A DNA stretch of 64,000 nucleotides from an uncultured Pseudomonadota bacterium (lineage in GTDB: Bacteria > Pseudomonadota > Gammaproteobacteria > CAJXQU01): positions 1 to 64,000 of the forward strand of contig CAJXQU010000004.1 in NCBI GenBank assembly GCA_913058255.1, given 5' to 3'. How positions within the stretch are numbered: position 1 is the first letter of the stretch; each line of letters starts with the position of its first letter. The translations under genes were made by a program, and so were the position numbers. Under the pieces are notes generated by a model that did no database searches, was not told the DNA's origin, and saw nothing but the letters and a program-made list of their open reading frames with translations. This document shows positions 2,463-49,571 of the stretch, piece after piece.

Positions 2463-5036
2463 CTATCCCAAAATTCCCTTCAAAACATAAAGCCTTTCCA
2501 GTGCTTCTTTAGGACTCAATTCATCTGGATCAATCGCTTCTAATGCTTCAACCAACTCATCATGCGAAGCAGGGGCTTCGACCACAACTCTTTCATCCCC
2601 CGACAAAACAGAAACTTTCTGACTTTCCAATTCTTTCAAACGGATTTTTGCATTTGAAATAACTTGTTTAGGAACCCCCGCAAGCTGAGCGACTTGTAGC
2701 CCATAACTTCGATCGGCCGGACCTTCTTTTACGGTGTGCATGAAGACGAGTTTGTCTTTGTGTTCGATGGCGTCGAGGCGAACGTTGATTGCAGTGGGTT
2801 GGGTTTCTGGAATGGCGGTCATTTCAAAATAGTGGGTGGCGAATAGCGTCCATGCGCCGATTTTTTCTAGTAGGTGAACGGCGCTGGCCCATGCTAATGA
2901 TAGGCCGTCAAAGGTGCTGGTGCCGCGTCCGATTTCGTCCATTAAGACTAATGAATTTTCGGTGGCATTATTTAATATATTGGCGGTTTCGATCATTTCG
3001 ACCATGAAGGTTGATCGACCTGCGGCCAGATCATCGCTTGCGCCGATGCGGGTAAATATGCGATCAATATTGCCTATGCTCGCCGTTTTTGCCGGAACAA
3101 AACTCCCGCAATGTGCGAGCAAAACGATTAAGGCAACTTGTCGCATATAGGTGGATTTACCGCCCATGTTTGGCCCGGTGATGATCAACATTTTTCGTTC
3201 TTGATCCATGACGAGATCATTGGGAATAAAACTTTCTTCGAGGATACTTTCGACAACGGGATGTCGACCTGCTTCGATATAGATGGCGGCATCATCACGT
3301 AATTCAGGTTGAGCATAATCTAAATTTACGGCCCGCTCTGCAAAGCTGTTCAAAACATCCAGTTCAGCGATTGCGGCGCTAGAAGTTTGTAGCTCGGCGG
3401 TGTGTTCGGCAAGTTGATCAAGCAGTGCGGCATAGAGTTTTTTTTCTAGTGCGAGGGCTTTGTCGCTGGCGCTGAGTACCTTGTCTTCGTATTCTTTTAG
3501 TTCGGGCGTAATAAAGCGTTCGGTGCCTTTAAGTGTTTGGCGACGATGGTAGTGGGTTGGGACGTTGCTGCTTTGTAGGCGACTGATTTCGATGTAGTAA
3601 CCATGCACGCGGTTGTAGCCAACTTTTAAGGTGTGATAGCCGGTACTTTCGCGTTCGCGTGTTTCAATTTGTTTTAAATAATCGGTGGCACTTTTGCTGA
3701 TGGCGCGTAGCTCATCCAATTCGGCATGATAGCCTTCCGCTATGACGCCACCATCTCTGATCAGGACAGGCGGTTCGTCTTTTATCCCGACGGTGAGTAG
3801 GTGAAGGAGTTCAGGAAATTCATTCATCAGTTTATGGAGTTGTTGCAGGCGTGGACTATCGAATTGTTGCAGCTTTTTTTTAATTTCGGGCAATGCGCTT
3901 AACGATGATCTGAGTTGAGCAAGATCTCTTGGCCGAGCGGATTTTAGAGCGATGCGTGAGATGATTCTTTCCATGTCACCAATTGATCGCAGTGATTCGC
4001 GTTGATCATCATAGCGTTGATTTTCGATCAAGCTAGCAACAGCATGATGACGAGATTTTATCATTGCTTGATTACGTAAAGGTGCTTGCAACCAGCGACT
4101 TAACATACGACTGCCCATGCCGGTAATTGCGCTGTCCATAAGATAGGCAAGGCTATGTTTTCGTTCTCCAGAAATGCTGTGTAAAATTTCTAAGTTACGG
4201 CGGCTGGCAGCATCAATCGTGATCGTATCGCTGCGATGTTCCAGTTGTAAATGGGTTAAATGTGGCACGCTTGAGCGCTGGGTTTCTCGCGTGTATTGCA
4301 GTAAGCAACCTGCCGCAGAAATGGTTGATGGCAGATCGGCACAACCAAAACCTTTTAGATCAGAAACAGCAAAGTGATCTTTCAACTGTCGTGTCGTAGA
4401 GTCTAGATCAAAATACCATGGTGGAACGGTCGTGACCGATCGATAGTTTCTTAACTCAGTCAGCAGGGGAGAGTCTTCACTGATCAACACTTCAGCGGGT
4501 TGAAGTCGTTCTAGTTCTGCGACCAGTTCGTCAACTTTATATTCTTTATTTTGCTGATCATGTTCACAATCAATTTGCATAACATGAAAGCGGCCGCCAC
4601 TCAGATCCAACCAAGCGAGACCAATATTCTTCTCATGTAGATGAATGGAAAAAAGGAGTGTATCGCGGCGCTCTTTGAGAAGTGCTTCGTCAGTAATGGT
4701 GCCGGGGGTAACAATCCGCGTGACTTTGCGTTCGACCGGGCCTTTGGTTGTGGCTGGGTCACCCACCTGGTCACAAATGACCACAGATTCACCGAGCTCA
4801 ACTAACTTGGCTAGATAGTTTTCTGCAGCATGTATCGGCATGCCCGCCATTGGGATCGGTTCCCCGGCAGAGCTGCCTCGCTTGGTTAGTGCTAACCCAA
4901 GAAGCTCGGTGGCTCGGCGCGCATCATCAAAAAAAAACTCGTAAAAATCGCCCATCTGGAAAAACAGTAAGGTGTTTGGATATTCGGCCTTGAAGCCGAG
5001 ATATTGCTGTATGACGGGCGTGTGTTCTGAGGCCAT
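2463..5036 (-). CDS. mutS: DNA mismatch repair protein MutS
   Basis: 857 aa; [15 protein letters not shown] Walker [16 protein letters not shown]-terminal [25 protein letters not shown]. Confidence 0.98.
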
Positions 5037-5109
5037 AGATTATTTTATCTTTTTCTTACAGGTGTAAATTGTTTATTGTTTAAAACCCTAATTAAGGGTT
5101 AAAGCGAGA

Positions 5110-46489: not shown

Positions 46490-46735
46490 TTGCCAATGAA
46501 TGACACTCAGATGACCGAGATAGAACGATACCAGATAAAAGCCTATTTGATGAAAGCAGGTTACACACAACAAGCGATAGCTATTGGACTCAATAGGTCG
46601 GCATCAACCATTAGTCGAGAGCTTAAACGCGCAACACCGGATTACGAGGATATAGACCTCAACAAGCTCAGAGGCTAGCAGATGAGCGTAAGCTGCAGCA
46701 CTGTCATGTGATGATTATCGATACGACATGGTGAT
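46490..46735 (+). pseudogene. IS30-family transposase 5' relic, frameshifted and truncated
   Basis: Frame 1 TEIERYQIKAYLMKAGYTQQAIAIGLNRSASTISRELKR, then shifted frame (N)TGLRGYRPQQAQRLADERKLQHCHVMIIDTTW*. Confidence 0.85.
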
Positions 46736-46879
46736 TTGTCATGGACAGGCAAACTATCTATTACTGCGGCTTGCGTCAAGTGACTAATGTGAATTAATCC
46801 CGATCTTTCTACCGGGTCATGGTTGTCTGCAACAGAATGGCTTAAACTCATCGTCCAAAATTGGGAGATGTGTGTGTAA

Positions 46880-47017
46880 ATGTTGTTTTCTGTCTTTTAT
46901 TTGCTAGCTATTTTAGTGCTGGTTGCTCATTTTTCTGGCTGGCTAGCAAGGAAAAATTTAGAATGGGTGGCCATTTTACTAGCCGTCTTAGTTTTTCCTG
47001 CTGTTATTTTTTTATAA
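46880..47017 (+). CDS. Possible 45-aa two-TM protein (MLFSVFYLLAILVLVAHFSGWLARKNLEWVAILLAVLVFPAVIFL)
   Basis: Short hydrophobic ORF not in the supplied track; may be a relic. Confidence 0.35.
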   Translation: MLFSVFYLLAILVLVAHFSGWLARKNLEWVAILLAVLVFPAVIFL

Positions 47018-47124
47018 AAAAGCGGCGGGTGCCTTCCTTGGCAAGATGACATCCTGTCATCGGTCATCCTTGGGGACCGTGCGTCCTGCTGTCTCGCCCG
47101 CCTAAGATAGATAACGGCAGGCGG
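47016..47124 (-). ncRNA. Candidate structured RNA/3'UTR on the minus strand: four short hairpins with loop GGA motifs, closed by GGCGGG/CCCGCC and ending in a T-tract; CsrA/RsmA-sponge-like
   Basis: Minus strand: GGCGGGCGAGACAGCAGGACGCACGGTCCCCAAGGATGACCGATGACAGGATGTCATCTTGCCAAGGAAGGCACCCGCCGCTTTTTT. Confidence 0.5.
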
Positions 47125-47144
47125 ACGTATTACTTTAGCAACAA

Positions 47145-47693
47145 CTAGATTTTCCCATCGAGTCCCATTTGATAATACTTATGGGTGATCTTTTCTTGAT
47201 TTTCTAATAACCAATCGATTGAAGGCTCATTATTCATAGCTTTATGGATTGCTTGTGTTGTTGCTTTACGGTGAATATCAAACAAAATTTTATGATCAAG
47301 GTTATCGTCTGTGGCTACAGAAGGGTTTAACCAAACAGAACAAATAATACCGAGGTCATTTGCTTTTTCTTTGGGGATATCTCCCGCACGAACCGCATCA
47401 AGTACACCATTCGCAATAGCTGCTTGAACAGTACCCATCAGAATATTGGTGTAACGACTGTTATTAACCGTCACTTTACTGACCATTAGGGTCACAGGCC
47501 GAACTTGGATGTCAGTATTCAAAATAGCAAAAACACGTGAATGTCCTTTGACTTGGTCTCCTGTCAAGGTTGCCAGCGCTGTTCCTACGGGGCCATCGAG
47601 TTCACCAATGATAATTTCTGGTTCTGCAGCAGTGCCTGGAGGCCCACCAGCAACTAATGATTCGCCTGTACGCAAGACTATTCTTTCACTCAT
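47145..47693 (-). CDS. Formaldehyde-activating enzyme (Fae) family homologue
   Basis: TGESLVAGG...IIIGELDGPVGTAL...VRPVTLMVSKVTVNNSRYTNILMGTVQAAIANGVLDAVRAGDIP aligns by eye with the Fae family. Confidence 0.82.
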   Translation of the reverse strand: MSERIVLRTGESLVAGGPPGTAAEPEIIIGELDGPVGTALATLTGDQVKGHSRVFAILNTDIQVRPVTLMVSKVTVNNSRYTNILMGTVQAAIANGVLDAVRAGDIPKEKANDLGIICSVWLNPSVATDDNLDHKILFDIHRKATTQAIHKAMNNEPSIDWLLENQEKITHKYYQMGLDGKI

Positions 47694-47841
47694 ATTATTT
47701 CTCCTAAAATTCCAACATCCTATCAGACAGTGAGTGGTTTTAGAACGAGATAAATATAGGTAATGGGGAGATGAAACTATGCAGAATTAAAAATCTGGTC
47801 AGTAGAAAGGTCGACCAACCAGAACTAGACAATACGTTACA

Positions 47842-48951
47842 TCATCGTTGAAACAAGGCCAGCTTCTCTAAGAGAGTGTCTGATATGGGTTTGAGCACAG
47901 GACCAACACCAGGAATAGCATTGGCTTTATTGAGTGTTTCACTGATTTTTGGTAAGCCTTCAGTGACTATTATAGAAGCTGGTTCTTGAACGGATGGTAG
48001 TCTGTCCATCAAGCTGGCAATGCTCTCTAGCTTAGAAATGGCCTCTTCTAGTTGTGGCAAAGTTGCTTCTGCAGACTCAGTATCTTTAATTCTTTCGAGT
48101 GAATTCGTCACATTGTTCATAACCCCAGACAGTTGTTTGTTTATGCTAGTCTGTTCGGGTGTGTTATTCCTTCCCTCTAGAGTCTGGGGATCAATATTAT
48201 TTGCAAAAAAAAGGTTATATGCGAGTAGTAAAGTCGCTAAAACGAGCGCGGCAGGAAAAAGCTTATTGAGTAGTGAAGAACTTTCAATAGTGATTGTTTG
48301 CGTAAGATCTTTAGCATTAGATGCTATATTGTTGGTGAAACCGAAAGAATCTAGTTGCTGCTGGAAACCGATAGGCATGGATGTTGCGATATTATTCTTT
48401 TGTGAGTTAAATAAGTGGGTCAAATTACTTAGGTTTAAACCATCGCCGCTCAATAGCTTACGCTTAATAAGATTAAGTATCATAGGTGTCAGTAAGCCTA
48501 ATAATGATTTTGCAGAGTCTTTTCCAACCCCACTAAAATCTGCAACAGCATTGATTAAACTACCAAAACCATTCGCTCCAAGTTGAGAGCCTAGGATATT
48601 TGATCCCGTATTCATCATTGCACTTTGTTTATTACCACTGAGTAGCGTGCCGAAGTTATCTAGGATACTGTCATCTTGATCCTTGATAGCTTCTAATAAG
48701 GTGTTACTGCCTATGGGTGATAAACCTGATTTCATTAAACCACCTAACAGGCCTGGAATGGCGCTATCTATTGCGGAAGAATTTTGTTCGGCTGAACCGC
48801 CGAGAACTTCTGCCAGTTGATCCATCACTGGGTCATTCATTTGATCTTTTATTAGATCAATAAGGTTGAAACTCACTGTATATACCCCCTTCGAGTATGG
48901 TTGATGAGATGTCTGATCTCGCATCAGACTATTATTGACGAGCAGGGGCAT
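47842..48951 (-). CDS. DUF937-domain protein
   Basis: NLIDLIKDQMNDPVMDQLAEVLGGSAEQNSSAIDSAIPGLLGGLMK..., later TM helix; start may be internal (~48876). Confidence 0.75.
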   Translation of the reverse strand: MPLLVNNSLMRDQTSHQPYSKGVYTVSFNLIDLIKDQMNDPVMDQLAEVLGGSAEQNSSAIDSAIPGLLGGLMKSGLSPIGSNTLLEAIKDQDDSILDNFGTLLSGNKQSAMMNTGSNILGSQLGANGFGSLINAVADFSGVGKDSAKSLLGLLTPMILNLIKRKLLSGDGLNLSNLTHLFNSQKNNIATSMPIGFQQQLDSFGFTNNIASNAKDLTQTITIESSSLLNKLFPAALVLATLLLAYNLFFANNIDPQTLEGRNNTPEQTSINKQLSGVMNNVTNSLERIKDTESAEATLPQLEEAISKLESIASLMDRLPSVQEPASIIVTEGLPKISETLNKANAIPGVGPVLKPISDTLLEKLALFQR

Positions 48952-48988: not shown

Positions 48989-49522
48989 TTACGAGTTTTT
49001 ATAATTATGAGCTAAGTTCGCAGGTTTCATATAATCAACAATTTTCCAACTGCCATAATCGATAATATTGTTGATGTTGGTGAGTTCTAAAGCGGTAATG
49101 GCTGAGGTGGGCATGAGGTTGCCTGATGCTTGTATGGGTATGCAATCACCACCTAGGTGGAGGATGAGTTCGCTTACTCCAGGATTATGACCTGTTAATA
49201 GGGTGATCTGCCCTTGCTTAATTTCTGCGGCAACAGTACCCAAGAGTTGGCTTAAACTCGCATTATAAATGGCGGGTTCCCAGATGATTTGATCTTCATC
49301 TTGCTTCCAATTTGTGCTGACGAGAGCAATGGTTTCTTTTACTCGTTGAGCGGTCGAACAGATAACCTGGTCAGGAGAATATCCTTGATTAACGAGCCAT
49401 TGACCCATGCGTGGAGCATCGATGTTACCTCGTTCAGACAGAACACGATCAAAATCTGAGCTTGTTCCAATATTCCAATCGGATTTTGCGTGACGCATTA
49501 TTAGTAGAGTTGTAGACTTCAT
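48989..49522 (-). CDS. Histidine phosphatase family, SixA-like
   Basis: LLIMRHAKSDWN (RHG-type), LLTGHNPGVSEL. Confidence 0.88.
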   Translation of the reverse strand: MKSTTLLIMRHAKSDWNIGTSSDFDRVLSERGNIDAPRMGQWLVNQGYSPDQVICSTAQRVKETIALVSTNWKQDEDQIIWEPAIYNASLSQLLGTVAAEIKQGQITLLTGHNPGVSELILHLGGDCIPIQASGNLMPTSAITALELTNINNIIDYGSWKIVDYMKPANLAHNYKNS

Positions 49523-49571
49523 ACTGAAAAGGTTAATGCTTTCATTTAAAAACAACAAGCTGGAGAATAAT

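Follow-up and report, generated by a model that had tools for sequence, protein, structure and literature searches.

The stretch of DNA that we analyzed, 64,000 nucleotides long and here called the window, carries on its minus strand a genuine fae gene, as its matches to the profiles PF08714 and TIGR03126 demonstrate (Table 1). The stop codon of fae occupies positions 47145-47147, and some 20 nt past it begins an array of GGA sites, which extends on the same strand to about 130 nt past the stop and ends in a T-run. A DUF937 gene precedes fae in the window. In a simple scan of positions 46850-47850, neither a sigma-70-like promoter was found nor a canonical intrinsic terminator scored, including between fae and the array. 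Before fae, at 47690-47760 of the minus strand, a CTGTCTGATAGGAT-like stretch is kept in all three species compared below; we read it as the putative −10 promoter region of fae, which would leave the message a very short leader. We also considered whether the 5′ leader of fae holds a conserved CsrA site and rejected this reading, as the GGA in question is lost in one relative (G001) and looks like a −10 box. On the far side of the array, between coxC and the convergent 45-residue ORF, a short helix-turn-helix ORF (46490-46678, plus strand) resembles the start of IS30-type transposases and is probably a transposon remnant.

Table 1. Features of the fae 3′ region in the window.
Feature	Positions	Strand	Remark
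fae, formaldehyde-activating enzyme	47145-47693	minus	Pfam PF08714, E 2e-59; NCBIfam TIGR03126 above cut-off
5′ hairpin P1 (GTC.CGCCTGCC / GGCGGGCG.GAC)	47091-47126	minus	most stable predicted fold
GGA site 1 (GC-AGGAC-GC), weak 2-bp hairpin	47081-47089	minus	invariant save for the N position
GGA site 2 (CGGTC-CCCAAGGAT-GACCG), includes CANGGANG	47061-47079	minus	one stem pair changes across three species
GGA site 3 (GATGAC-AGGAT-GTCATC)	47045-47061	minus	core TGAC/GTCA invariant in three species
GGA site 4 (TGCC-AAGGAA-GGCA), includes CANGGANG	47030-47043	minus	stem invariant; both N positions vary
Enclosing stem P2, GGCGGG (47097-47102) with CCCGCC (47024-47029)	47024-47102	minus	arms identical in three species
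T-run beyond P2, presumed 3′ end of the transcript	47016-47021	minus	similarity between window and G002 ends just beyond
Convergent ORF, 45-aa membrane protein	46880-47017	plus	stop overlaps the T-run

An earlier note on this DNA had described the array as four minus-strand hairpins with GGA in every loop, enclosed by a GGCGGG/CCCGCC stem and followed by six T. Its sequence, strand and coordinates proved correct, with GGA at 47084-86, 47067-69, 47052-54 and 47035-37 (spacing 17, 15 and 17 nt) and the T-run in place. The proposed folding held in part. Over the fold ensemble, the probability of GGA lying in a loop is high for sites 3 (0.97) and 4 (0.76), but low for sites 2 (0.12) and 1 (0.01), and hairpins 2 and 3 as first drawn have one G in common. 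The expected number of GGAs in hairpin loops was 1.85 in the window, compared to 0.12 in dinucleotide shuffles, a value reached by 1 of 200 shuffles. The two relatives introduced below gave 0.71 and 1.32, which 21 and 6 of 200 shuffles reached, a weaker result than in the window. The fold z-score was −2.3.

The arms of the enclosing stem are likewise present and able to pair, yet a pairing with the upstream CGCCTGCC, which forms P1, is more stable for GGCGGG than P2, at −42.3 versus −32.1 kcal/mol in the window and −37.5 versus −33.6 kcal/mol in the relative G002. P1 competes with P2 for GGCGGG, with an advantage of about 10 kcal/mol in the window, and in these modelled folds the enclosing stem is one of two alternative pairings.

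The element recurs in one copy, behind fae, in both of the two other genomes of the family/order (G001 and G002) that together with the window genome (G000) made up our conservation set of three sequences. Over 106 columns, its identity across the three species is 85-87%. In the neighboring fae gene, identity at four-fold degenerate sites is only 36-41%, so that neutral similarity is essentially gone, and the comparison of the two values indicates strong purifying selection on this non-coding stretch.

The pattern of substitutions is more specific. The SELEX consensus for CsrA is RUACARGGAUGU, as quoted in PMC7652899. When the four sites of the element are written as CA(N)GGANG, they comprise 30 columns, of which 5 vary, and all 5 fall within the six N columns; the C, the A, the GGA and the G are unchanged at every site in all three species. 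The hypergeometric probability of changes at N positions only is 6/142506 = 4.2e-5, a value that takes the motif as fixed beforehand, the form without a first N, used for the two five-base loops, being our own reading. For the stems, 90.9% of the P1 cells are paired over the three species, with two pairs changing from U-G to C-G, and one stem pair of hairpin 2 reads G-C, G-U and A-U. Covariation, which the earlier note had proposed to look for, is nevertheless scant in a set of only three sequences: it amounts to 1 pair, and the P1 and P2 structures did not exceed the shuffle control. By the pairing pattern, the RNA strand is that of fae (minus), since on the plus strand the U-G pairs of P1 would turn into C-A mismatches.

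The genes around fae differ between the three species. The convergent 45-aa ORF ends on the T-run in G001 as it does in the window. Behind the fae gene of G002 this ORF was not detected; a short way past the T-run lies a COX1-family gene on the strand of fae, and the element is conserved there to the same degree. Upstream of fae in G002, a sequence was read by eye as the end of a gene resembling the one at window positions 48989-49558. The fae gene and the element stay together in all three neighborhoods, and this conserved unit places the element with the fae message. We rejected the element as a control of a shared downstream gene, since the downstream genes differ among the species.

In its own genome, blastn found one copy of the element, which is thus not a dispersed repeat there. 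A search for tandem AGGA gave 30 matches in the genome, two of which are this array; nearly all of the remaining ones lie in ORFs and by eye none resembles a hairpin array. The 3′ ends of about 65 other fae genes, mostly from Methylococcales, are unrelated and lack the element. A class-wide covariance search of 369 genomes yielded no homologue outside the genus, and weak matches beyond it were by eye mostly coding sequence. One of the weak matches, at locus L137, is a GGA array but was rejected as part of a dispersed repeat. Membership in the CsrB or PrrB_RsmZ family was not borne out: Rfam gave no match on the element strand, and at gathering as well as relaxed thresholds the element had chance matches only. 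A whole-genome search run with the CsrB and PrrB_RsmZ models found no credible homologue of these two families, the listed places all lying elsewhere than the element; weak RsmZ matches in the genome were rejected as plain terminators. Judged from these searches, the element is lineage-restricted, single-copy and without an Rfam family.

The protein that such an array would bind is encoded in the genome. The csrA gene, whose absence would have told against the array, lies beside aspartate kinase, and its product is nearly identical over the first 58 residues to CsrA/RsmA proteins of solved structure.

From the confinement of substitutions to free N positions and the invariance of GGA, which favor CsrA sites, we consider a putative CsrA-binding array in the fae 3′-UTR well supported, and it is likely that this 3′-UTR indeed binds CsrA. 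The fae mRNA would end in a conserved non-coding segment of about 113 nt, with four CsrA sites 15-17 nt apart followed by the T-run, to which probably one or two CsrA dimers could bind. Whether it stays in the fae mRNA or is cut out as a fragment, this segment could act as a CsrA decoy, such that more transcription of fae would leave less free CsrA. That the CsrA-binding 3′-UTR lowers free CsrA in this way under strong fae transcription is our best explanation, to which we give about an even chance; the decoy role would probably follow by analogy, from the four-site array and the parallels to RsmW and RsmU discussed below. Against a decoy speak the poor folding of two of the four hairpins and the modest loop exposure in the relatives. 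We infer from sequence and analogy that the array is transcribed, binds CsrA and serves as a decoy, and we likewise infer a titration role in preference to cis-control of fae. The array is linked to C1 metabolism by its position only. A bolder extension would make the fae 3′ end, in place of a GacA-driven sRNA, the main CsrA antagonist of this order-level lineage, with the demand for formaldehyde oxidation setting free CsrA and the P1/P2 alternative coupling CsrA occupancy to the 3′ end; this strikes us as improbable.

The main rival to a decoy is control of fae in cis, in which CsrA would move the RNA from one of the two pairings, P1 or P2, to the other and thereby set the 3′ end, the stability or the read-through of the fae mRNA, without meaningful titration. 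This we deem rather unlikely. Two mutually exclusive pairings do share GGCGGG, and both the shared arm and its P2 partner are fully conserved; however, as the P2 arms never vary, they neither support nor oppose the P2 pairing. In favor stands also the COX1-family gene past the T-run in G002, on the same strand, but the convergent gene that follows in the window and G001 leaves no common downstream gene to control. Less probable still is that the element is an ordinary structured transcript end, or a two-way terminator between convergent genes, in which the GGAs are incidental. This would fit the GC-rich stems, the T-run behind the gene and the convergent 45-aa gene. In plain terminators, though, stems persist while loops drift, whereas here GGA is invariant at all four sites and the N positions vary; furthermore, the array is conserved far above neutral sites, the terminator scan scored nothing canonical, and the element is kept in G002 despite the missing convergent gene.

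A stand-alone sRNA of the RsmY/RsmZ type, transcribed from a promoter of its own within the end of fae, is suggested by the size of the element and its tandem GGA hairpins, which resemble known sponge RNAs. Rsm RNAs have their own GacA-dependent promoter. Upstream of the element, however, no GacA box (TGTAAG-N6-CTTACA) was seen by eye or among the genome matches listed, the genome-wide counts being uninformative (100 forward, 121 in the backward control); the scan around fae showed no sigma-70-like promoter, and the third positions of the last fae codons are barely more conserved than those in the middle of the gene (0.56 versus 0.40-0.53). We therefore regard such an sRNA as quite improbable. 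Least probable of all, and hardly to be expected, is that the element derives from one of the dispersed GGA-hairpin repeats of other Gammaproteobacteria, as a copy that became fixed and diverged. The two are alike in layout, with a long or GC-rich stem around CANGGANG hairpins (loci L162 and L137). The repeats differ in being multi-copy, in having another core and, in the genome where this was examined, in an orientation that is random with respect to genes; no sequence similarity to the element was seen beyond the motif, and the element is single-copy in each genome. The repeat core CANGGANGNRTTCACGGCGT has no copy in G000, G001 or G002, and is thus absent from the genus of the fae element.

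These CsrA-like CANGGANG-hairpin repeats were observed in genome G249 (loci L177-L206) and at L137, L149, L155, L160, L162, L165, L175, L176 and L076. The pattern CAGGGAYGNRTTCACGGCGT, with at most 2 mismatches, occurs in 99 of 369 genomes, where some single matches are chance according to the controls; G249 has it in 622 places, with none in the backward control, and the exact CANGGANGNRTTCACGGCGT core in 355. Relative to the gene upstream, the 30 copies examined in G249 favored neither orientation. In 57 repeat elements, GGA frequently forms the loop of the partner hairpin, whose stem differs between elements; some elements are enclosed by self-complementary arms that reach 33 bp in length and differ by locus. 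One copy, at L162 (~1400-1580), caps a terminator-like stem (AAAGCCCCGCC...GGCGGGGTTTT), a layout like that of the fae element. The repeat matched no Rfam family at threshold, and we found no paper describing it within an incomplete coverage of the literature. Weak, sub-threshold Rfam matches to Ysr224 recur at repeat copies on the minus strand (L176 1465-1572; L180 1465-1563; L076 2623-2721 and 3439-3548), and Ysr224 may be related to a repeat of this kind. Pairs of AGGGATG hairpins with another core, found at methanotroph-type loci (L044 ~4535-4661, L062 ~4929-5051 and L055 ~940-1073, all minus, in reverse-strand coordinates), are possibly further repeat families.

Among known systems, CsrB and RsmZ (RF00018, RF00166) share with the fae element a GGA-hairpin array followed by a T-run, but the element fails their models and the CsrB array is much longer. 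Closer parallels to a CsrA-binding fae 3′-UTR are two RsmA-binding RNAs from mRNA 3′ ends. RsmW of Pseudomonas aeruginosa lies in the 3′-UTR of PA4570, within 30 nt of that ORF, and its tandem GGA sites (7 GGAs) bind RsmA with a Kd of 11.5 nM (PMC4950607). The fae element resembles it in its tandem GGA sites and its position close behind an ORF, and differs in its host gene and in having four predicted sites in place of seven GGAs and measured binding. RsmU of Xanthomonas campestris is processed from the 3′-UTR of the comEA mRNA, has four predicted GGA motifs and no Rfam homologue, and is found in one genus only (PMC7694677). In its 3′-UTR origin, four GGA motifs, lack of an Rfam match and restriction to one lineage it is much like the fae element; the host gene is another, and binding is experimental for RsmU and predicted for the fae element. 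The binding and function of RsmU survived a GGA-to-AAU mutation (PMC7694677), which sets limits to motif arguments. Of the features of this kind of RNA, the fae element has the same-strand 3′ position with no canonical terminator scored in between and four consensus GGA sites, while loop exposure of GGA is robust at two of the four sites in the window and weaker in the relatives. If our reading is right, one-carbon metabolism would be tied to the Csr system through a central enzyme's mRNA, and the fae 3′ end would join RsmW and RsmU as a further lineage-specific case of an mRNA 3′ end acting in the Csr system, invisible to RNA-family databases.
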